Positions 11 to 42,546 of a DNA stretch of 48,762 bases are shown piece after piece. Where the stretch lies: positions 1 through 48,762 of the forward strand of contig CALVAL010000004.1 of assembly GCA_944325535.1 (NCBI GenBank). Reading direction: 5' to 3'. Made by a program: the position numbers and the translations under genes. The stretch is from Candidatus Gastranaerophilales bacterium. Lineage in GTDB: Bacteria; Cyanobacteriota; Vampirovibrionia; Gastranaerophilales; Gastranaerophilaceae. The notes under the pieces were generated by a model. That model did no database searches. It saw nothing but the letters and a program-made list of their open reading frames with translations, and was not told where the DNA came from. Numbering within the stretch: position 1 is the stretch's first letter; the number at the start of each line of letters is the position of its first letter.

Positions 11-196
11 TTATTATACCCCACCCTATCCCTCCCCATTAGGGGAGGGAATTTGCAATTTTGTTTTTTAATAAAAGTATATAGAGATTTTTTGTTAGCG
101 AGTTAATTGTCCACTTTTGGGGGGACATTTCAGGGGGATACTTCATATTCAAAACCTCTTCCCCTGTTGGGGAAGGCTGGGAAGGGGTATAAAATA
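11..196. repeat. Inverted pair of GC-rich palindromes (REP/MITE-like)
   Basis: Positions 29-37 pair with 42-50 as a perfect 9-bp C/G-rich stem with loop ATTA. Positions 158-164 pair with 169-175 as a 7-bp stem with loop TGTT. The segment around 11-50 resembles the reverse complement of about 155-196: both arms carry a TATACCCC-type block, then a CCC block, then the CCCC/GGGG palindrome. The pair is separated by about 100 nt, which contain a further G-run and a short GTCC/GGAC hairpin at 109-126. The strong G/C content contrasts with the AT-rich surroundings. A REP doublet or MITE remnant is inferred. The rest of 1-272 shows no gene. Confidence 0.55.
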
Positions 197-6761: not shown

Positions 6762-7580
6762 TTAACCTAAACCAAATGTTGGTGCGGATTCTTTGATACC
6801 TTCGCTGCAAGCTTGTTTTAAACTGTCTAGTCTTGCTTTTGCATCTGCCATTTGTGTTTCTAATCCAGCTTGTTCTAAATCGATATCTGTTTGTTCTGCT
6901 TCTAATGGAGCTAAAGCTGCATCCTGTTCTGCTTCGATTTGAGCTTTTTGTGCATCTAACCAAACTGATATATTCATTTGATAATTTGATGACATTTGCT
7001 GACACATCATTTGAGCTTGTGATTGTTGTTGTTGTGCCATTGACATCGCTTGCATGAAGACTTGATGTTGTTCTTTTGTAAACAAATGATCGGCATCTGG
7101 TCCATATCCAAGTAAATTTGAGGTATCAACTTTACCATCAGCATCTTTTTTGTATTGTGGTTGTAATGAATTAGACATGTATGCTTGTAGCATTTGTTGA
7201 TAAGTATTACTATCCATACCTCCTGGTATGCTATCATATCCTCCATCTTTATTAGGAATACCTGGACAAGTTTCAAGTATTGCAGCCATTCGGTTAGCAA
7301 CAAATGATGTAATACCATATCCACTCATGTTCATTGGATTGAACATTTGATTTTGAGTACCTAAACCGAATGCATTTTGGATACCCATTGTGAATTGGTT
7401 TTGAAGCATCTTAGTAGACTGCTCAAGTTGAGTCATCTTATTAGAGTACATTTTCTGTACTTTAGTAATATTATCAGCTATTCTTGTCTTACGATTGGCA
7501 AGACGAGAGCTACGTAACTTCATTTTGTTGTAGTTACGTTGCAGCCTCATTTTTTCATGTAATAATAACAAGAAAGCCAT
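6762..7580 (-). CDS. Q/M-rich coiled-coil protein, unknown function
   Basis: 272 residues; I do not recognise the family. Seen: a short hydrophobic start, a strongly basic stretch at about 12-33, a helical segment at 34-70, a central part rich in Met, Asn, Gly and Pro (about 70-160), a glutamine/methionine-rich segment (about 175-205) with a run of four Q, and an acidic-basic heptad-like C-terminal coiled coil (about 210-258). There is no classical cleavable signal peptide. A GAGG motif lies about 12 nt upstream of the start. The promoter region carries the shared GCAATT-N13-ATACTTTATA element. Gene order says nothing about function, since dnaE converges on it and a TOPRIM gene diverges from it. 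A structural or exported protein is possible but unproven. Confidence 0.75.
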   Translation of the reverse strand: MAFLLLLHEKMRLQRNYNKMKLRSSRLANRKTRIADNITKVQKMYSNKMTQLEQSTKMLQNQFTMGIQNAFGLGTQNQMFNPMNMSGYGITSFVANRMAAILETCPGIPNKDGGYDSIPGGMDSNTYQQMLQAYMSNSLQPQYKKDADGKVDTSNLLGYGPDADHLFTKEQHQVFMQAMSMAQQQQSQAQMMCQQMSSNYQMNISVWLDAQKAQIEAEQDAALAPLEAEQTDIDLEQAGLETQMADAKARLDSLKQACSEGIKESAPTFGLG

Positions 7581-7618: not shown

Positions 7619-7647
7619 TATAAAGTATATTTATAAGGTTTAATTGC
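7619..7647 (-). promoter_or_regulatory. Shared promoter element, copy C (GCAATT-N13-ATACTTTATA)
   Basis: On the minus strand GCAATT (7647-7642) is followed after exactly 13 nt by ATACTTTATA (7628-7619), 38 nt before the start codon at 7580. The same pair with the same spacing precedes the genes at 35736 and 36126. Upstream of it, TGTAAA, a TTTTGTAACAAT block and TCTGCAATT are also shared with the copy before 36126. This is probably the core promoter, or an operator overlapping it. Confidence 0.55.
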
Positions 7648-7699
7648 AGATAAATGAAAATATTGTTACAAAAGTTTACATTATTTATTTATATATTTT

Positions 7700-7738
7700 T
7701 TTACAAATATTTACATTAATACTATAATAAATATAATG
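7700..7738 (+). promoter_or_regulatory. Promoter for a leaderless transcript (7736 gene)
   Basis: TTTACA (7700-7705), a 17-nt spacer, and a perfect TATAAT (7723-7728) are followed by 7 nt and then the ATG at 7736. The predicted transcription start falls on or next to the A of the ATG. No Shine-Dalgarno is present. Confidence 0.65.
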
Positions 7739-8725
7739 AAGTATAGAAAATTATCAAAAGAACAAATAATTATATCAATTGATAGACTAACTAGGTTTAA
7801 GCAAACAAAAGAAAAATACTTAAGAGTATTTTTTGACATAATTATTTCTGGGCTAATAGAGCCAAAATATAAAAAAAATGATTTATATTCACTAAGCACT
7901 GTACAAATTAAGAATCTCGCAGAAGAAATCTTTAACAATTCTTTTGATACTCATTTTGGAGATTACTCCATAAATCGTAAATTAGCTGAATATGAAAATT
8001 CTATATTTAAAAATGATAGTGACACTCATGAATTACTAAATAATAAATTTGATTATTTATCTGCTTTAAAATTGATAGATAATGATTGTGTAGTAAATTT
8101 AAAATGGCTTAAAAGCTTAGCAATTAATTCAAATCAAATAGAATATAGAGATAAATATTATCTAAAGTATCCTATAGAAAAAGTACTATTAGTGGAGGGT
8201 ATAACGGAAGAAATTCTACTTCCGGCTTTTTCAAAATACTTAGACTACGATTTTTACCAAAAAGGGATTCAAATAATTCCAGCAGGAGGAAAAAATCAAG
8301 TTGTAAAAATGTATTATAAACTAATTGAAGAATTAAAAATTCCTATATTTTTATTGCTTGATAAAGATGCCGAAGAAAATATTAAGCAGATTCTTCCTAA
8401 GCTAAGAGAAATAGATAAAATACATTTAGTTTCTTGTGGAGAATTCGAAGATTTATTACCAAAGTCTTTAATTGTAAAATCAGTAAACAATCACTTTAAG
8501 AATTTTTCTTCTATAACAGAAGCTGATTTATATGATAATTTATCAGAGGTGGAAAACTTAGAGAATATTTTTAAACAAAAAGGCTTACATGAATTTAAAA
8601 AAGCTGATTTTGCAAAACTTGTTAAATCTAATATTAGTGACCCTTCAGATATTTCAAATGAAATAAAAGATATTGTAAAAGAAATTTCACAAAATAAAAC
8701 TCTTGACAGTAAAAAATGTTCTTGA
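7736..8725 (+). CDS. Stand-alone OLD-type TOPRIM domain protein
   Basis: 329 residues. The C-terminal half matches the TOPRIM nuclease domain of OLD-family proteins. Seen: VEG with E154 plus E158-E159, a GGK at 184-186, the LLDKD motif with D209 and D211, and a downstream GEFEDLLP (E236, E238, D239). OLD proteins normally carry an N-terminal ABC-type ATPase, but here residues 1-145 show no Walker A or B motif and are Lys/Asn/Ile-rich and helical. A metal-dependent nuclease of defence or repair type is inferred, perhaps partnered with an ATPase encoded elsewhere. It is a single gene, divergent from the Q/M-rich gene and just upstream of tRNA-Lys. Expression is probably from a leaderless mRNA. 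Confidence 0.7.
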   Translation: MKYRKLSKEQIIISIDRLTRFKQTKEKYLRVFFDIIISGLIEPKYKKNDLYSLSTVQIKNLAEEIFNNSFDTHFGDYSINRKLAEYENSIFKNDSDTHELLNNKFDYLSALKLIDNDCVVNLKWLKSLAINSNQIEYRDKYYLKYPIEKVLLVEGITEEILLPAFSKYLDYDFYQKGIQIIPAGGKNQVVKMYYKLIEELKIPIFLLLDKDAEENIKQILPKLREIDKIHLVSCGEFEDLLPKSLIVKSVNNHFKNFSSITEADLYDNLSEVENLENIFKQKGLHEFKKADFAKLVKSNISDPSDISNEIKDIVKEISQNKTLDSKKCS

Positions 8726-24225: not shown

Positions 24226-25311
24226 CTAATTAGAAGGAATAATCACATTAAAAGAGGTACTCTTAAGAATTTGAGACTCAACCCAAATTATTCCTCCAAG
24301 AATTTGTACCCAATTTTTTACACTTGCTAATACAATAGCTCTTAAGACATTCTTTCTATTTGTAGAATCTATAATTTTATATGGGTCGAAAATATATTCT
24401 AAATCATTTTCTGATAAAAGCATTGCAGAAGAAGACAAGGTAATATGAGTATAATTACCATCTAATAGTCCTTTTTCTGTTAGTAACTCTTTACTAGGAG
24501 TTGAAACCTCAATACTTATTTCTCCCATATCTATAGATTTTAGAATTACCTCCAAAATATTTTGTACTATATTTTTTACAATTTTTTCATCTGTAGATAT
24601 AGTCTTTTTTAAACCTTCTTGAGCAGATACAGATATTTTTATGTCTTTATCTTTATAGAGTTGTTCATTATATTTAGCTGTCGCATTTATCAAATTCAAT
24701 ATATCAAGGACTTTGTTTTCCAAATTTTCCGAATTTAATTCAGTTTCTGATAACTCTAGTAATTTTGCCATAAAATACATAAGTTCTGTCGAATTTTTAT
24801 TAATTATTCTTATGTATTTTTCTTGCTGCTCATTAAGTTCTCCGCCTAGCCCATCAGCCATTGCTTGTGAGAAACCAACAATAGACTGAATAGGAGACTT
24901 TAAATCATTCGCCAACTTTATTAAAAAGTTATTTTTTTCTCTATTCGTCTCTTCTTCATTTGATTCATTAGAATTTAAATTTAATTCTGAAGTTATTGCA
25001 TCTCTAAAATCTAATACATAACCTTCATCTATTTCTTTTACAGTCATATCAAAGTAAATTTCTTTTTCTATGAACTTAGTAATAACCGGCCTGTGCGTAA
25101 TTATATAACTTGAGATTAAATTCATTGGATTTTCGATAAAATCAGAAATGTTTGAAGTTAACAAATGCATTTTTGAAGTCTCAAAAATTTCTGCAGCAAT
25201 ATCATTCACCCATTGAATTTTACCATCCTTTGAACACATTATTATAGCATCAGGGAGAGCTTTTTCTACATCTATAGAATTTGTCCTGAACAAAATTTTT
25301 TTAATATCCAT
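24226..25311 (-). CDS. Degenerate PAS histidine kinase (pseudokinase)
   Basis: 361 residues with the layout of a soluble sensor histidine kinase: PAS domain (about 12-105), linker, dimerisation helices (about 126-195) and an ATPase-like domain (about 225-360). The H-box reads ANDLKSP at 134-140, so Asn135 replaces the phosphorylated His of the usual SHELRTP. In the ATPase part the GxG of the G1 box is missing (the segment before ENDLEYIFDPY has no DxGxG). The N-box asparagines (NIVQN) and the GGIIWVES end motif remain. Autophosphorylation is therefore unlikely; a scaffold or allosteric role is inferred. Shine-Dalgarno AAGGAAG is present. No response regulator is nearby. Confidence 0.8.
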   Translation of the reverse strand: MDIKKILFRTNSIDVEKALPDAIIMCSKDGKIQWVNDIAAEIFETSKMHLLTSNISDFIENPMNLISSYIITHRPVITKFIEKEIYFDMTVKEIDEGYVLDFRDAITSELNLNSNESNEEETNREKNNFLIKLANDLKSPIQSIVGFSQAMADGLGGELNEQQEKYIRIINKNSTELMYFMAKLLELSETELNSENLENKVLDILNLINATAKYNEQLYKDKDIKISVSAQEGLKKTISTDEKIVKNIVQNILEVILKSIDMGEISIEVSTPSKELLTEKGLLDGNYTHITLSSSAMLLSENDLEYIFDPYKIIDSTNRKNVLRAIVLASVKNWVQILGGIIWVESQILKSTSFNVIIPSN

Positions 25312-26463: not shown

Positions 26464-26513
26464 TTGACAACATTCACATTTATTAAGACAATAATATGTG
26501 AATATTGGAGGGG
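26464..26513 (+). promoter_or_regulatory. Promoter and ribosome site of gcvT
   Basis: A perfect -35 TTGACA (26464-26469), a 17-nt spacer and GACAAT (26487-26492) precede a strong Shine-Dalgarno GGAGGGG (26507-26513). This selects the ATG at 26516 over the GTG at 26498. The short leader leaves no room for a glycine riboswitch. Confidence 0.6.
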
Positions 26514-26515
26514 AT

Positions 26516-27616
26516 ATGACAAAGCAAACTTTTCTTCATGATAAGCATATTGAACTAGGTGCAAAAATGGTAGATTTTGCAGGTTGGGAAATGCCTGTAC
26601 AATATTCATCAATAATAGAAGAACATAAAGCTGTAAGGAATGGCATTGGGATTTTTGACGTGTCTCACATGGGAGAAGTTATTGTAAAAGGCGAAGATGC
26701 TCTTCCTTTTTTGAATAAAGTTGTTCCTCAAAATATAAACAGACTAAATTTATATAAGGCAGTATATTGTCAATTAACAAATAAAAATGGCGGTATTATT
26801 GACGATTTAATAATTTATAAAATTGATGAAAACAAATATTTAATAATTGCAAACGCATCAAGAATTGATGAAGATTTAAACTGGCTAGTACGTAACAAAT
26901 CAGGCTTTAATGTAGATATTATAAATGAGTCACATAACTATTCATTACTTGCAATACAAGGGCCTAATGCTTGCAAATTGCTAGAAGATGTTGGGATCAC
27001 AAATCTTCCATTATTTTTTACAATCAAAAGAGATGAACTTTTTAATGTAAACGTTTGGATTTCAAGAACAGGATATACTGGCGAAGATGGTGTAGAAATA
27101 CTTGTAAGAAATGAATTTTCTGAATATTTATGGGATAAATTACTAGAAAGTGGGAAAAAATATGGCATACAACCCATTGGTCTAGGAGCAAGAGACACAT
27201 TAAGATTAGAAGCTGCTTTACATCTATATGGAAATGATTTAGACTAAAACACCACCCCTATAGAAGCTGGACTATCTTGGTCTATCCCTAAAGACAAAAT
27301 AGAAGAATATAATGGAAAGAACTTTATAGAACAGCAACTAGAAAAAGGAATTGAAAAAAAACTTATTGGATTTAAAATGCTTGATCGTGCAATTGCAAGA
27401 CACGGTTATGAAATCTTCTATAACAACAATAAGATAGGAAAAGTAACAAGTGGGGGTATTTCACCTACAAGAGGTGATAATATTGGCATGGGGTACATTA
27501 AAAATCTTGACAATTTATCTGTAGGCTCTACAATTCAAATTATGATAAGAGAAAAATTACACAATGCTGAAATTGTTAAACGTCCATTTGTAATGAAAAG
27601 GAATAAGAATAATTAA
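26516..27616 (+). pseudogene. gcvT: Aminomethyltransferase gene (glycine cleavage T) with in-frame stop
   Basis: GcvT transfers the aminomethyl unit of lipoyl-GcvH to tetrahydrofolate. From ATG 26516 the frame encodes a full-length protein of about 366 codons, interrupted by one TAA at 27245-27247. The frame resumes without shift. The residues before the stop (HLYGNDLD) and after it (NTTPIEAGLSW) are the contiguous GcvT segment seen in homologues, where the stop position is usually Glu or Lys. GAA or AAA to TAA is a single substitution. The N-terminal part (ends 27247) and the C-terminal part are otherwise intact. A recent nonsense mutation or a sequencing/assembly error is likely. gcvH and gcvPA directly downstream are intact. 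Confidence 0.9.
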
Positions 27617-35571: not shown

Positions 35572-35674
35572 AAAATAAACATACTATAAACTGGTATGTT
35601 TTGCAATTATTAGTGCTATTCAGTAAATTTTGAAAAATTATCTTTACATAACTTAATAAAACACAAACAAAAAG

Positions 35675-35703
35675 GCAATTTTTTTAAAATGAAATACTTT
35701 ATA
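35675..35703 (+). promoter_or_regulatory. Shared promoter element, copy A (GCAATT-N13-ATACTTTATA)
   Basis: GCAATT at 35675-35680, exactly 13 nt, then ATACTTTATA at 35694-35703, 32 nt before the ATG at 35736. Downstream, a GATATGAT / AAAGGAT block resembles that of copy B. Confidence 0.55.
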
Positions 35704-35735
35704 TATACATAGATATGATTATAAAGGATAAAAAA

Positions 35736-35939
35736 ATGACTGAACAAGAATTATATGCATCAATGTCAGTAATAGCAGACCCAATCAATAATGTTTACAA
35801 ACTTGATTCAAGAAAAGATATTGAAGAAATTCAAAGAATCTGCAGAATTTTTCAAATTTCAGAAAAACAAGGTAATAAACATAGAATGTTATCTATAAAA
35901 AACTTAGCTACATTCAGACTTGTTTTAAGCAACAACTAG
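35736..35939 (+). CDS. Small protein of unknown function (67 aa)
   Basis: 67 residues from ATG 35736, chosen because AAAGGAT lies 7-8 nt upstream; an in-frame ATG at 35715 lacks one. Not recognised. It has an acidic start (MTEQELYASM), a DSRKDIEEIQRICRIFQI amphipathic helix and a basic C-terminal third. No signal peptide. It is flanked by the shared promoter element and by a strong terminator at 35963, so it is a monocistronic gene. Confidence 0.75.
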   Translation: MTEQELYASMSVIADPINNVYKLDSRKDIEEIQRICRIFQISEKQGNKHRMLSIKNLATFRLVLSNN

Positions 35940-35962
35940 AATAATAAAATAAAATTTACTTC

Positions 35963-35994
35963 AAAAGCGTTCATTATTACTAATGAACGCTTTT
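35963..35994 (+). terminator. Strong Rho-independent terminator
   Basis: A perfect 14-bp stem (35963-35976 with 35981-35994, loop TTAC) ends in four T. It lies 24 nt after the small gene ending at 35939. Confidence 0.88.
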
Positions 35995-36054
35995 ATGTTA
36001 TACAATTAGCACAACTTTAATATGTAAATTTTTGTAACAATTATTATAAAATCT

Positions 36055-36083
36055 GCAATTTTTAAAATAAAAAATACTTTATA
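36055..36083 (+). promoter_or_regulatory. Shared promoter element, copy B (GCAATT-N13-ATACTTTATA)
   Basis: GCAATT at 36055-36060, 13 nt, then ATACTTTATA at 36074-36083, 42 nt before the ATG at 36126. The preceding TGTAAATTTTTGTAACAAT and ATCTGCAATT are also matched upstream of the 7580 minus-strand gene. Confidence 0.55.
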
Positions 36084-36125: not shown

Positions 36126-36281
36126 ATGGGCGACAGAATTGGAGAAATCAAAGGTAGTAATCCTTGGGAAATCAAAAATGATAAAGTAGACTATAATACA
36201 AACTACAACAATGAAAAAACTAAAAACGTTCCTTGGGAACAAGTTAGTATATGGAATGCAGCTGCAGCTTATCAAGGATAA
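36126..36281 (+). CDS. Very small protein (51 aa) with two PWE motifs
   Basis: A 51-codon frame from ATG 36126 to TAA 36279-36281, easily missed by gene callers. AAAGGAT lies 6-7 nt upstream, the shared promoter element precedes it and a perfect terminator hairpin follows at 36303, so it is a complete transcription unit. The sequence is polar (MGDRIGEIKGSNPWE), Asn/Lys/Tyr-rich in the middle, and ends with VPWEQ and a short Ala-rich tail. The two PWE motifs (13-15 and 36-38) are the only repeat. No homologue recognised. It fills most of the otherwise gene-free stretch 35940-36348. Confidence 0.7.
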   Translation: MGDRIGEIKGSNPWEIKNDKVDYNTNYNNEKTKNVPWEQVSIWNAAAAYQG

Positions 36282-36952: not shown

Positions 36953-38749
36953 TTAGTCATTAACTTTTTGTTTATAAACATGGCCCTTACAATCTTTTTC
37001 AATATTTGGAGTATCTATTTCAAATACATAAGCATCAGCAGGTGCTAAATTTACTTTTAATTCATTAGCTTCTACTTGAAATTCGCTTGTATCACCGTAG
37101 CTTGGAACCATATTTACCAATTTTTGGTCTTCTTTTAGACCTGGAATGTCTATAATTCCTGTAACATTTCTATTTGGATTTTTATTAGCAACTACAAGAA
37201 TTGTTCTTCCATTATTATGTCTTGCAAAAGTAATTATTTGATCATTTTTATCTTCTCTTTTATTAAGTTCAATGAAACTACTATTACGATCAGCTAATAC
37301 ATCTTTATTAGCTTCTCTCATTTTTAGAGTTCCTTCCATTACTCTTGCTATATCAGGAGAATCACCTCCCGGTTTTCTTGAAAGATTGAACAAAGCAAGT
37401 CTAAATCTGTGTTCATTCATATCATATTTATCAGTAAATTTACCTTCTTCTTTATTAAATTTTGTTGTCCAAGTCTCTATATTGTCTGTGTCACGATATT
37501 TATAATCATAATAGTCACCTGTTTGGAATCCATCTATAAAATAAGGATTACACATTGGAATTGTAGACTGTAAAACAGTAGTCAACTTACAGAAATTTTC
37601 ACCACCATGAATCATAGATGAACTATCATCATGTGTTAGAAAAGAACCGATTACGCTTTTTCCTGCAGGTAATTTATGAGACAAATCTAAATTTAATTTT
37701 ATATAATCATTAAAATCAGCAGCACCTTTCCAATCGTGGAATATGTGATATTGACCATAGTAATCATCAAAACCAGCTCTTAAAAGATCTTCTGGTCTGT
37801 CATAAGGCATATTTACCATTGGTGACGCACATTCATAAGTATAGCTTTCTGCTAACCAGCCGAATTCAGGATCTTTTTCTCTAGAGTATTTTATTAAAAC
37901 ATCCCAAAATTCAGGAGGTTTCGCTCTAGCAACATCTGCTCTTATACCGTCTATACCTAAATCAATGCAAGCATCTACATACTGTTTATGCATTTCTAAT
38001 AACTTAGGATTTAAAGTTCTTGCAGCTTCATCAGCCCAAGGTTCAAACATTCTTATATCAGTCCATCCTTGAGGAGTTTTTTCTTCTCCGTTTCTTCCAT
38101 ATGCCATCAAGTATGGTTCTGCTTCTAACATATCAACAGAAGCACAGCTTGGTAAATCTAACATCACTTTTATACCACGTTTATGGCACTCATCAATTAA
38201 AGCCTTAAATTGTTCATTAGAAGTTCTTGGATCATTTTTATCAATAATCATAGGATCAATAGCTAAAGAACCATCATCATTTACATACTTTGCTGGAGCA
38301 TATAAAGAACCTGCTGTTCCCATTGCATTTTTCTTTCCAGGAGGATGAATTGGTAAAATATGAATCGTATTTATACCTAAATCTTTTAGCTCGTCTAATC
38401 TATCTATTGCACTTAATAAAGTACCATTTTTTTCACCTGTTGCAAGAGTTACTTTATCATCACCATTTAAATCTTGAGCAGTAAAAGTTCTTGGAACAAT
38501 AGCCATCATCACAGATTCATTATTCTGAATCATAGATCTTAAATTATTCTTATAAGGCTCTATTTTTTGAGTCTTATTTAAATCAATCTTTTTCACTTTA
38601 GCAGTATTAATTAATGCTAAATTATCAAGATACATTTTTGAAGTTTCATTATTGTAACTATTATTCTCAGCTTCTTTTTGTTTGACTTGAGGCTGATAGT
38701 TACTTACTGCTTGGAAATTGATAGGATTAATACTAGCTATTCTTGTCAT
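36953..38749 (-). CDS. GH13 alpha-amylase-family glycoside hydrolase
   Basis: 598 residues. A non-catalytic N-terminal part (1-75) precedes a GH13 TIM barrel: region I VMLDLPSCAS (D198), region II GIRADVARA with nucleophile D272, region III WLAESY with acid/base E301, and region IV FLTHDD with D374. A C-terminal beta domain (about 490-585) follows. Substrate (starch, glycogen or other alpha-glucan) is not predictable by eye. No signal peptide; instead the N-terminus carries NPINFQA (8-14). Shine-Dalgarno AGGTGAG. It overlaps the upstream membrane-protein gene by 17 nt, so it is the third gene of the 42378-36953 operon. Confidence 0.87.
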   Translation of the reverse strand: MTRIASINPINFQAVSNYQPQVKQKEAENNSYNNETSKMYLDNLALINTAKVKKIDLNKTQKIEPYKNNLRSMIQNNESVMMAIVPRTFTAQDLNGDDKVTLATGEKNGTLLSAIDRLDELKDLGINTIHILPIHPPGKKNAMGTAGSLYAPAKYVNDDGSLAIDPMIIDKNDPRTSNEQFKALIDECHKRGIKVMLDLPSCASVDMLEAEPYLMAYGRNGEEKTPQGWTDIRMFEPWADEAARTLNPKLLEMHKQYVDACIDLGIDGIRADVARAKPPEFWDVLIKYSREKDPEFGWLAESYTYECASPMVNMPYDRPEDLLRAGFDDYYGQYHIFHDWKGAADFNDYIKLNLDLSHKLPAGKSVIGSFLTHDDSSSMIHGGENFCKLTTVLQSTIPMCNPYFIDGFQTGDYYDYKYRDTDNIETWTTKFNKEEGKFTDKYDMNEHRFRLALFNLSRKPGGDSPDIARVMEGTLKMREANKDVLADRNSSFIELNKREDKNDQIITFARHNNGRTILVVANKNPNRNVTGIIDIPGLKEDQKLVNMVPSYGDTSEFQVEANELKVNLAPADAYVFEIDTPNIEKDCKGHVYKQKVND

Positions 38750-41312
38750 CGCTCACCTGCTTCATTAAATTATGTGGATTTTTTAATTTACCGAATCCAT
38801 ATTGTGCTAAAACTGTTGCTCCTAGGACAGATGCTCCAATAGTTGATACTATTCTCAACCACTTTTGAGTACCATATCTTCTATCAGCAGCTGCTTTGAT
38901 AAAATCTACTGGACTTTGAGCTACTAAATTAAACATAGTCATTGGTTTTTGACTTTTTTCGTATGCTTTTATATTATTATCCAAAACATGTCCTGGTTTT
39001 GTAAAATCTATAGTCTTATTTCCTATAATATTTCTAAATCTATTAATATAATTTTGTAATCTATCTAATATTTTACCATTTGTAATCTCATTTTCTTTAA
39101 TTGCATTTTTAGTTGCATCAGTAAGATATCCCTTACCTTTTACAATATGTTCTGAAGCTGGACCTTCATACTGACCAACTTGATATATTGTGTTCATGAC
39201 ATCTTTATAAAAACTAGCATTATTTACCATATTATGTTTTAATGCATTTTCAGATGATGTACTAGTTAACAAGATATCTTTACCTTTTTGAAGAATAGCC
39301 CTATCATATTCACCACTTGGAATTTCACGTTTATATACATCCATAGTGTGCAAAAATCTATTAAATGAATTATTTGCACCTTGATATCTTTCAAATATTC
39401 TACTAATTGTTGCTTCTTTTGCAGAACCAACGCCTCTAGCATTTTCCTTTGCTTTATCTATCAATTGGTCTTTTGCTAAAGATTTATCGACTCTTATACC
39501 ATCAAGAAAATCAAACAATTCTTCTCTTGATTTAATTGAATTTGACAGAGTATTTACATCCTCTTTAACTAACTTATCGATTGTATTTTTAAAACTTCCT
39601 GCCTTATCTAATCTAATAGCAGTATTATTATAATTATTTTCTATAGCTGTAATTAAATCTTTAATATGAGATTCATTTGCAGATCTGCCATTTAAAGCTA
39701 CGTCCATTTCTGACATAACTTTTGTAAGCTTATCTATAGCTTTATTATATTTTTTCTCATCTTTTGCAAGAGCTGTTAATTTTGCATCCAAAATTTCTTT
39801 TGCATATTTTTCAGACTCTTTCATTTGTTTCAAATCTTTAAAATTAATATCTAATACATTGAATAAAGTCTTTTCAAATTTTGCATAATATCGAGCAAGA
39901 ACTGTTTCTGATGTATGCTCAAATTTAAATGATTTATACTTATCTAATAGACCTTCATAATGTTTAAATTCACCTAAAATTTTTGAAAAATCAACAATTT
40001 CTCGATACCCTTGGTCTGATAAATAAAGAGATTTTTCTTTTTGTAAATTCTTTGATATATTTTCTAAAAGATTATTATTTTGGAAAGCTTTTAGATATTC
40101 TTTAGTATCATTTGATAATGTTGCATCATTTTTTATTTTATTTGCAAATAAATCTTTTAATTTTCCTTTTATTTGCATTAAGTCATTTCCGCTAACAGTA
40201 TCATGACCTTTTAAGATTTCAGCCATTTCTTCTTTTGATGGAATGAAGATTTTTTCCATTAAAGTTTGATTATTTTTTGGAAGACTCTTTTTAATTAACA
40301 AAATAATATCATCAGCAGCATTATCTGCTAATTTATATCCATTCTTTTCTTGTTCTAAAATTGCAGTCAAATCTTTTTTTATACCATCTGATAGACCTGA
40401 AGGCATATCTTTTGTTAGAATATCAACAATTGCATCTAGTTCAGATTTATGAATTTCTTTTCCTCTATAATTTTTCAATATAGCTTCAACTTTTTTACTT
40501 ACATTATTAGCACCAATCTCATTAGGATCTAGAGTCATTTCACTTGTATTCTTTAAAACTTGTGAAATTCTTGAATTATAAGCCATATTCTTAACATTTG
40601 CATAAGCTGGAGCAATTAATCGTTCTAGCCCAAAACAAGTTAACGCAGCAATTACTGGAGTTGCAGCTCCTGCAGTCAACATCCAAAGAGTGTTATTTTG
40701 AGTAGCTATTTTTCTCATTTGCTCTTTGATTACATCATGTCTGTTTTTAATATCTCTAGGTATTCCTAATCTATCACCTATAATATCTATATCTTCGCTT
40801 GGTCTTTCTCCTTGATACATATCAAAAGGAATATAGTTACTATCTTGGAATACTGATTTTTTACGACCTTGATCATCTATATATTCAATACCTGTATCAA
40901 AGCCATGCATTACTCTTGATGGAGCTTGAATAGCTATTTTAGGGAATATAGACATTGCTGCCAAAAAAGCACCTAAGCCTGCATATTCCATAATTCTTGC
41001 AACGGGATTGGTTGTTCTAGCTGCTAACATTGTAGCAATACCTACACCACCTAATTTAATACCAACATCATTCAAACGCCCTGTTTGGTGATCATTAGCA
41101 TTACCTCTAAAACCATCTCTTACAGCCTTTAAATCATAAGCGAAGTCTTTCCAGAAAAATTTAGGCATTTGCATTAATCTGTCATGCACCAAATGTCCTT
41201 CTGGCGCTAATGGTTTTACATTATTTTTTGTTTTTACAGGCTTATTAGCCTCATTATAATGTTTATGAGACTTAGTATTATCTATATTTGCTTGAATTGG
41301 AGATATTGCCAT
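38733..41312 (-). CDS. Large unknown membrane protein with coiled-coil regions
   Basis: 859 residues, not recognised. A polar Lys/Asn-rich N-terminus (1-45) is followed by hydrophobic segments at about 85-125 and 210-230, a long Lys/Glu/Asp-rich, mostly helical region with coiled-coil character (about 240-790), and a final hydrophobic helix near 830-845. No enzymatic motif is visible. Its start is 1 nt after the stop of the upstream gene and its end overlaps the GH13 gene, so all three are co-expressed. Topology suggests a large soluble middle domain held between membrane anchors. Confidence 0.75.
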   Translation of the reverse strand: MAISPIQANIDNTKSHKHYNEANKPVKTKNNVKPLAPEGHLVHDRLMQMPKFFWKDFAYDLKAVRDGFRGNANDHQTGRLNDVGIKLGGVGIATMLAARTTNPVARIMEYAGLGAFLAAMSIFPKIAIQAPSRVMHGFDTGIEYIDDQGRKKSVFQDSNYIPFDMYQGERPSEDIDIIGDRLGIPRDIKNRHDVIKEQMRKIATQNNTLWMLTAGAATPVIAALTCFGLERLIAPAYANVKNMAYNSRISQVLKNTSEMTLDPNEIGANNVSKKVEAILKNYRGKEIHKSELDAIVDILTKDMPSGLSDGIKKDLTAILEQEKNGYKLADNAADDIILLIKKSLPKNNQTLMEKIFIPSKEEMAEILKGHDTVSGNDLMQIKGKLKDLFANKIKNDATLSNDTKEYLKAFQNNNLLENISKNLQKEKSLYLSDQGYREIVDFSKILGEFKHYEGLLDKYKSFKFEHTSETVLARYYAKFEKTLFNVLDINFKDLKQMKESEKYAKEILDAKLTALAKDEKKYNKAIDKLTKVMSEMDVALNGRSANESHIKDLITAIENNYNNTAIRLDKAGSFKNTIDKLVKEDVNTLSNSIKSREELFDFLDGIRVDKSLAKDQLIDKAKENARGVGSAKEATISRIFERYQGANNSFNRFLHTMDVYKREIPSGEYDRAILQKGKDILLTSTSSENALKHNMVNNASFYKDVMNTIYQVGQYEGPASEHIVKGKGYLTDATKNAIKENEITNGKILDRLQNYINRFRNIIGNKTIDFTKPGHVLDNNIKAYEKSQKPMTMFNLVAQSPVDFIKAAADRRYGTQKWLRIVSTIGASVLGATVLAQYGFGKLKNPHNLMKQVSDDKNS

Positions 41313-41313
41313 A

Positions 41314-42378
41314 CTAAATCACCGTACTTTCTTCATTTTTATCCATTAGATCTTTATTTGCTAACTTGCCCATATGACGAGCTTTATATATTACATTTGC
41401 AACTGAACCTGCTGTTAAAGCTATAGTAGCTAAAATCCAAGTTTTACCTGCATGTTTTAACACACCATATTCCTCTTTTCCTGCCCAAAGAGATTTTGCA
41501 GATTTAACAAATGAACTTCCAAATGTCTTTGATATATCTACCAAATTTGTACCTGCATTTTTTAGTCTGCTGCCGACTTTAGTCATAAAACTTTCATTTG
41601 GCTTTGCAATATGGCGTTTTCTATTAGAAATTGAATCAAAGAAATCCCCCCAACAATCTTGAGCAGCCATGCCTACACCTAGTGCTGCCCAAGCATATGA
41701 TGATAAACTTTTTGCAGTTTTTGTTGTTGAAATGATACTTTGAATTATAGGAGTTGTCTCTGTTACTGAATCATTAAGATCTTCACCTAATCCAATTTTT
41801 TTAGCGATATTATCATAATATTTTATACCTATATCTTTTTGAATTAAATCTTTTCTAAAAAATTCTCTACTATCGTATACTTTTCTTTGCTGTATTTGAG
41901 GAATTATTGTTGCATTTTCTCCAGCTTCTTTTGGTAGCGGATAAGAAATATGTTGAACTGGAAGTTCTATATCAACACCAGTACCTAAATATACCGGACG
42001 AGTTACAAAATCATTTGAAATTGTTTTGAATAGACCATACAAAACAACTCCTAAAGCCATTTTATTACCATTAAATGATGCTAATAGTTGAGATTTTGGG
42101 TTCAATTTTTTTACAATATTAAATAACCCCATAAACATACCACTACCAACAAGATAAGGTATAATTCCCATAGAAAGGAATTCATAAAAATCAGAGTTTA
42201 CATCCCCTTTAAGTCCTTTAATAGGATATTCTAAAAAAGCATTAGAAGTCTTGTGAAATTTTTGACGAACTCGAGTTTGCAAAGTATTAGGCAAAATCTT
42301 TGATTCTTCATCAATTTCTTTCTTTTGCTTAGCTTTAAAATCTACATTATTGTCTGATAATCTTACCGGTCTAATCAT
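41314..42378 (-). CDS. Unknown multi-pass membrane protein
   Basis: 354 residues, not recognised. A polar N-terminus including NNVDFKAK (10-17) is followed by hydrophobic helices at about 70-92, 108-118, 225-245 and 315-335; the C-terminus is polar. A TGGGG ribosome site lies about 6 nt before the ATG. First gene of a three-gene operon with the 859-aa membrane protein and the GH13 enzyme, behind a diverged copy of the shared promoter element. Confidence 0.75.
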   Translation of the reverse strand: MIRPVRLSDNNVDFKAKQKKEIDEESKILPNTLQTRVRQKFHKTSNAFLEYPIKGLKGDVNSDFYEFLSMGIIPYLVGSGMFMGLFNIVKKLNPKSQLLASFNGNKMALGVVLYGLFKTISNDFVTRPVYLGTGVDIELPVQHISYPLPKEAGENATIIPQIQQRKVYDSREFFRKDLIQKDIGIKYYDNIAKKIGLGEDLNDSVTETTPIIQSIISTTKTAKSLSSYAWAALGVGMAAQDCWGDFFDSISNRKRHIAKPNESFMTKVGSRLKNAGTNLVDISKTFGSSFVKSAKSLWAGKEEYGVLKHAGKTWILATIALTAGSVANVIYKARHMGKLANKDLMDKNEESTVI

Positions 42379-42403: not shown

Positions 42404-42432
42404 TTAAAAGTCTTGTAAATATAAAATTTTGC
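42404..42432 (-). promoter_or_regulatory. Shared promoter element, diverged copy D
   Basis: Minus strand: GCAAAA (42432-42427), exactly 13 nt, then AGACTTTTAA (42413-42404; 7 of 10 bases as in copies A-C) followed by TATATAG, 25 nt before ATG 42378. An ATATGTAAATTT block upstream matches copy B. Confidence 0.4.
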
Positions 42433-42546
42433 TAAATTTCTAGCATGAAATTTACATATTTTTACAATTATCAGGTAATTCTATATAAAACGAAGAATAC
42501 ACCACACATAAATAAATTTAACAAAAACAAAAAAATTAAACAAGTG

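Follow-up and report, generated by a model that had tools for sequence, protein, structure and literature searches.

Several genes in a 48,762-nt stretch of DNA from a Candidatus Gastranaerophilales bacterium (contig CALVAL010000004.1, hereafter the window), most of them without an assigned function, are preceded by the same pair of boxes, GCAATT-N13-ATACTTTATA, which raises the question of whether these boxes constitute a promoter and, if so, which regulator and which sigma factor would read it. A first-pass annotation had placed the pattern with identical spacing at three coordinates, and all three proved to be exact matches (Table 1). When up to three mismatches were allowed, the window alone contained seven sites against 4.1 expected by chance, which is near the chance level, and significance was therefore taken from the exact sites and the genome-wide counts. 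The genome of the window (1.99 Mb, 114 contigs) carries 82 sites with at most two mismatches, 21 of them exact, versus seven for the reversed pattern, and 41 sites with at most one mismatch versus a single one for the reversed pattern. Nearly all unique sites of the latter class are intergenic (39 of 40; p about 5e-40), with about 91% of the window being coding.

Table 1. Promoter elements, genes and short RNAs considered in this study. Coordinates without a contig prefix refer to the window; C-numbers denote other contigs of the same genome.
Feature	Position	Strand	Remark
Core promoter GCAATT-N13-ATACTTTATA, 67-aa gene	35675..35703	+	exact match
Core promoter, 51-aa gene	36055..36083	+	exact match
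Core promoter, 272-aa Q/M-rich coiled-coil gene	7619..7647	-	exact match
Variant core GCAAAA...GACTTTTAATATATAG, membrane-protein/GH13 operon	42404..42432	-	conserved with HLR1 in orthologs
HLR1-like box TTTACATAACTTAATAAA, 14/16, forward	35643..35660	+	starts 32 nt before GCAATT of the 35675 core
HLR1 box, 16/16, reverse orientation, 51-aa gene promoter	36021..36038	-	consensus scan
HLR1 box, 16/16, reverse relative to 272-aa gene promoter	7665..7682	+	consensus scan, orthologs
Second HLR1 box, 16/16, by 272-aa gene	7700..7717	+	consensus scan
HLR1 box, 16/16, reverse relative to 42404 promoter	42451..42468	+	consensus scan, orthologs
67-aa lineage-specific protein	35736..35939	+	start 35736; in-frame ATG at 35715 less likely
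51-aa protein	36126..36281	+	ORF behind the 36055 core
272-aa Q/M-rich coiled-coil protein	6762..7580	-	orthologs within genus only
354-aa membrane-protein gene, operon gene 1	41314..42378	-	orthologs across order
859-aa protein, operon gene 2	38733..41312	-	no Pfam family above cut-off
598-aa GH13 (alpha-amylase family) protein, operon gene 3	36953..38749	-	PF00128, 32 bits vs 22-bit cut-off
SigX, diverged sigma-70 candidate	C75:5052-5951	-	Sigma70 region 2 PF04542, 62.1 bits
sRNA-1, two copies	C32:176, C38:12702		promoter and terminator
Short RNA	C30:18166		promoter and terminator
Short RNA	C48:13663		promoter and terminator
Two-copy RNA with CUCUCUCU	C1:62776, C86:5596		promoter and terminator

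The column consensus of 150 unique sites from this genome and its relatives, many of which are orthologs of one another, consists of a -35-like G[C/A]AATT, a 13-nt spacer and a -10-like ATACTTTATA. At two loci (L022 and L068) the start codon follows about 16 nt past the second box with a Shine-Dalgarno sequence in between, so that ATACTTTATA must be near the -10 position. Judged from its sequence distribution, GCAATT-N13-ATACTTTATA is a genuine core promoter that serves a regulon throughout the Candidatus Gastranaerophilales lineage.

A second element lies upstream of the core. The first-pass annotation had pointed to a TGTAAA/TTTTGTAACAAT block shared by the genes starting at 7580 and 36126, and when read on the other strand (GTTACAAAAGTTTACATT at 7665-7682 and GTTACAAAAATTTACATA at 36021-36038) this block is a reverse-orientation HLR1 box, 16/16 in both cases. 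HLR1, the box of the response regulator RpaB, has the consensus KTTACAWW-N2-KTTACAWW (PMC13421787; PMC9241938) and is located at about -66 to -45 from the transcription start of RpaB-activated genes (PMC13421787), a placement that is approximate here, as our transcription start is deduced from sequence. The two KTTACAWW repeats, 2 nt apart, score 16/16 at three window promoters and 14/16 at the fourth. Scanning the whole window at a threshold of at least 15/16 returned four boxes, all of them perfect, intergenic and situated before the promoters proposed in the first-pass annotation, whereas shuffled windows gave about one box at this threshold and almost never a perfect one. Over the 150-site set, HLR1 of at least 14/16 was found upstream of 72% of the sites, compared with 2.5% of shuffles. 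The positions are confined as well: 35 of the 36 boxes in the genome (score of at least 13) start inside narrow bins upstream of the core (-34/-35 and -23 to -25 in reverse, -31/-32 and -21/-22 in forward orientation), and the box ends 14-17 nt (or 4-7 nt) before GCAATT. Ten base pairs, or one turn of the helix, separate these two clusters, a spacing to be expected if the bound protein touches RNA polymerase. About a quarter of the sites in this genome keep the core with no recognisable HLR1 box, and the core is therefore a separate determinant that looks as if it were read by its own sigma factor.

Footprinting in relatives covered three window loci, namely those of the 272-aa gene, the 67-aa gene and the operon behind 42404. 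Upstream of the 272-aa gene, both HLR1 (14-16/16, same offset) and the core are kept in 27/27 loci while the 13-nt spacer drifts, and the core of the 67-aa gene is kept with at most three mismatches in 30/30 loci, mostly together with a forward HLR1-like box. The copy at 42404-42432, which has about five mismatches and fails the pattern, had been included as a diverged copy in the first-pass annotation; its orthologs nevertheless display HLR1 and, about 18 nt on, GCAAA(A) and ACTTTTAATATATAG in the same geometry, so that counting it was justified. Thus, the predicted promoter is conserved upstream of orthologs at all three loci examined, including the 42404 variant.

In photosynthetic cyanobacteria, RpaB is the regulator by which the cell responds to light. 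The genome of the window encodes three OmpR-type regulators, and one of them (on C31) matches the RpaB equivalog NF045944 of NCBIfam over its full length with 346.6 bits (cut-off 330), whereas its two paralogs reach 197-198 bits and stay under the cut-off. RpaB is in all likelihood the activator acting through HLR1 at most copies, and we are fairly confident that the element belongs to an RpaB-activated promoter class. We infer that the RpaB ortholog would bind HLR1 in either orientation and at two preferred positions, and would thereby recruit RNA polymerase. RpaA, RpaB and NblS have been described in non-photosynthetic Melainabacteria (Di Rienzi et al., 2013, PMC3787301; Soo et al., 2014, PMC4040986), and it was suggested that they may have another function there (Di Rienzi et al., 2013, PMC3787301). 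Our literature search found no paper on an RpaB regulon in these non-photosynthetic bacteria.

Two other explanations bear on the nature of these boxes. Given the AT-richness of the genome (the window has 29% GC) and the location of some copies before multi-copy genes at contig ends, the pattern might be a chance product of base composition, or a dispersed repeat or mobile DNA devoid of promoter function. This is hardly credible, since the boxes are kept while spacers and flanks differ, nearly all sites are intergenic with a reversed control near zero, and they lie in a consistent orientation and at a consistent distance from start codons or RNAs; footprinting at the three window loci and at the sRNA-1 loci described below has already refuted it. 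It is also improbable, to a lesser degree, that an OmpR-family regulator other than RpaB occupies the upstream box. The genome has three OmpR-type regulators, and a paralog could conceivably recognise direct repeats resembling KTTACAWW, but the RpaB equivalog cut-off is exceeded by a single one of them, and the box agrees with the published consensus for RpaB at 16/16.

With RpaB as the favoured activator, the sigma factor was considered. The core, G[CA]AATT, N13 and ATACTTTATA, does not match the housekeeping sigma-70 promoter TTGACA-N17-TATAAT. FliA/sigma-28 promoters have the consensus TAAA-N15-GCCGATAA and sigma-54 promoters TGGCAC-N5-TTGCA (-24/-12), and the column consensus of the 150 sites agrees with neither; no FliA-type boxes were recognised by eye before two flagellin genes. 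Among the eight sigma-70-family genes of the genome, SigX is a diverged RpoD-like sigma that falls under every specific NCBIfam equivalog cut-off. Its promoter-reading helices deviate from those of RpoD (RAIADQARTIRIPVHMVE in RpoD to KAISEQSYCMKIPVYIQE in SigX, and GVTRERIRQIE to GVTKECIRQTE), and its regions 2.4 and 4.2 are kept across the order with small changes, KA(I/V)xEQ...K(I/V)PVY and TKEC(I/V)RQTE, that differ from RpoD. The co-distribution of SigX and motif was analysed in 156 genomes of the class. Each of the 60 genomes from the own family carries a SigX ortholog and 17-50 motif sites, orthologs outside the genus being 57-65% identical, whereas none of the 96 genomes belonging to other orders has such an ortholog (best hits about 41%, the RpoD level), and their motif counts of 0-6 were near the control level; being largely a matter of one clade and confounded by ancestry, this co-distribution is supportive, not decisive. 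Upstream of sigX in genus members, HLR1-like boxes precede a sigma-70-like promoter more often than in shuffles, while outside the genus they occur at chance level.

SigX is our best candidate for the sigma of the core, which we slightly favour, and it would read the core as a dedicated alternative sigma. A feed-forward loop would then arise in which RpaB acts on SigX, and RpaB together with SigX acts on the targets. Alternatively, RpoD might read the core, the unusual -35 and -10 boxes being weak RpaB-dependent promoters that require no dedicated sigma. RpoD and RpaB are both encoded in the genome, poor -35 boxes are common at activator-dependent promoters, and two genomes, G036 (99% complete) and G047 (82%), have motif matches with no SigX ortholog found. 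Weak activator-dependent boxes should drift, however, and the quarter of the sites in this genome that lack HLR1 keep the same 16 fixed bases; moreover, ATACTTTATA at a fixed 13-nt spacing is unlike TTGACA-N17-TATAAT. We therefore consider the RpoD explanation rather unlikely. A slightly smaller chance is left to another cognate sigma, namely the group-2-like L032, the SigF-like L037 or the FliA/WhiG-like L038. The genome has eight sigma-70-family genes to choose from, and L032 is likewise diverged in region 2.4 and likewise largely follows the family. Nevertheless, FliA and SigB/SigF recognise the consensus boxes GCCGATAA and GGGTAT, which are unlike ATACTTTATA, and L032 is disfavoured by its absence from G143, a 99% complete genome that keeps 20 motif sites.

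What the promoter would control was assessed from the first genes behind the sites in this genome. A mere five of 30 reach a Pfam cut-off, encoding a glucosaminidase, a CHAP-domain protein (exactly at cut-off), a TPS-secreted protein, a HEAT-repeat protein and a ribbon-helix-helix protein, the former two being putative peptidoglycan hydrolases, and the remainder are unassigned; by contrast, 10/10 nearby genes of the window that do not belong to the regulon match a Pfam family. The first-pass annotation had named an equally frequent occurrence before ordinary housekeeping genes as grounds for abandoning its proposal, and no housekeeping enzyme was found among the 30. Its suggestion of a dedicated sigma factor or activator before lineage-specific genes is favoured by our data, with the RpaB/HLR1 part well supported and SigX tentative, but the notion of one controlled system was too narrow for a genome-wide regulon of about 40 sites with varied proteins and small RNAs. 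The regulon consists mainly of lineage-specific proteins, partly of envelope or surface type, and of small non-coding RNAs.

At the window loci, the 67-aa protein has orthologs in 31 of the 34 genomes of the genus, weak ones in five others and sub-threshold Pfam matches only, and the 51-aa protein has no match in Pfam or NCBIfam. The 272-aa protein features two long helices (residues 2-70 and 169-265) and a C-terminal ...SAPxFGLG; structure prediction arranged the long helices as a coiled-coil-like hairpin (mean pLDDT 77.7) with no PDB structure match under E 0.1, and its sequence had no match in Pfam, NCBIfam or PDB.

Some further observations were made along the way. The 272-aa gene adjoins a divergent gene for an OLD-like TOPRIM protein without an evident ATPase part (7736-8725, plus strand). 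A short N-terminal motif (INFQA, NFKA or SFKG) recurs in many unassigned proteins (36953-38749, 41314-42378 and other loci such as L131, L037 and L124) and is possibly a sorting or export signal. A PAS/histidine-kinase-like protein (24226-25311, minus strand) has the H-box NDLKSP where HELRTP-like sequences are usual, so that its phospho-accepting histidine seems to be missing, and gcvT, for the glycine cleavage T protein, is apparently split into two ORFs of 249 and 79 aa (26498-27616, plus strand). In the phage contig L336 (IMG/VR), HLR1 and the core promoter stand before a small gene (motif at 82-110, minus strand); its genes resemble a prophage-like block at C34:13900-20883 of the genome, which also ends in a motif copy, and phages of the Gastranaerophilales lineage seem to use the host promoter. 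A second FlhA-like gene stands directly before one motif copy on C34, but a link to type III secretion was rejected, as relatives carry the same 80-aa gene elsewhere. The genome has four FlhA (PF00771) matches (C39, C34:2-1150, C6:36067 and C68:2779), of which one is a complete flagellar copy in a fliPQR-flhB operon, one is cut at a contig end and two are diverged and partial.

At several sites in the genome, what follows is a terminator-bearing short RNA and not a gene (Table 1). These RNAs contain C-rich or CUCUCUCU stretches and are absent from Rfam. For sRNA-1, a 34-nt stretch of the RNA with no promoter sequence within it was searched in 84,980 species genomes, and at least 111 stretches were matched; the homologs listed come almost only from Candidatus Gastranaerophilales, Melainabacteria, Cyanobacteria and rumen or gut MAG records. 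The matches listed comprise 107 unique loci, five of them known beforehand. An exact G[CA]AATT-N13-ATACTTTATA lies upstream of 94 of these loci, and the number rises to 104 when up to two mismatches are tolerated, almost always at 26-67 nt before the sRNA core. HLR1 of at least 13/16 was present at all 106 scorable loci among them, and 48 boxes were perfect. Conservation extends past the 34-nt query (ATGAGGAATTA...ATTCC followed by a hairpin and a T-run). By computation, sRNA-1 has its own promoter, an intrinsic terminator, a conserved sequence and no ORF of ordinary size, and we infer that such RNA-only units are expressed and functional. The Rfam covariance models (Yfr1, PsrR1 and others) gave no match on the sRNA-1 strand, the hits being a tRNA and one sub-threshold opposite-strand match (E up to 0.5), and covariation support was nil because the short GGAATT/AATTCC hairpin hardly varies. 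Target prediction yielded duplex energies like those of shuffled RNAs, with no enrichment of regulon mRNAs (p = 0.95). Besides, motif-driven short RNAs adjoin sigX in three genera (L100, L220 and L223), those of L220 and L223 being nearly identical across two genera.

Taken together, we tentatively propose, as a possibility a little short of even, that RpaB and HLR1 were kept in this lineage and wired through its own sigma factor to surface-type proteins and ultraconserved C-rich small RNAs, in a feed-forward arrangement that would set surface presentation. With the promoter element, RpaB targets can be predicted at the level of single sites across many genomes, so that the role of RpaB in non-photosynthetic Melainabacteria, a matter raised in 2013-2014, becomes testable. 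In this uncultured lineage of the gut and rumen, a lineage-specific sigma factor and a set of small RNAs also gain a likely promoter, and many unassigned proteins gain functional context.

Regulons of the FliA/SigF/HrpL type likewise have fixed -35/-10-like boxes common to many dispersed operons and a co-distributed lineage-specific sigma, as SigX is here, whereas the boxes described in this work are off the known consensus. The cyanobacterial small RNAs Yfr1 and PsrR1 are short, with an invariant C-rich stretch predicted to be unpaired and a terminator hairpin, as is sRNA-1, and PsrR1 is RpaB-controlled, as predicted for sRNA-1; the sequence of the latter, ACCUUUC...ACCUAC...ACCUUC, is different and without an Rfam match. 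The NblS-RpaB/HLR1 regulon of photosynthetic cyanobacteria (PMC13421787; PMC9241938; PMC6331805) shares with the present one the RpaB equivalog, the same 18-bp box of direct repeats, found in both orientations, and its location upstream of the core as at RpaB-activated genes. Small RNAs (RpaB-PsrR1 in Synechocystis) are among its members as well, as is a gene for a sigma factor (rpoD3/sigD), whose counterpart here is apparently sigX. In contrast, the hosts here are non-photosynthetic gut bacteria, the predicted targets are lineage-specific proteins and unrelated small RNAs, and the box is paired with a core promoter that is fixed and unusual.
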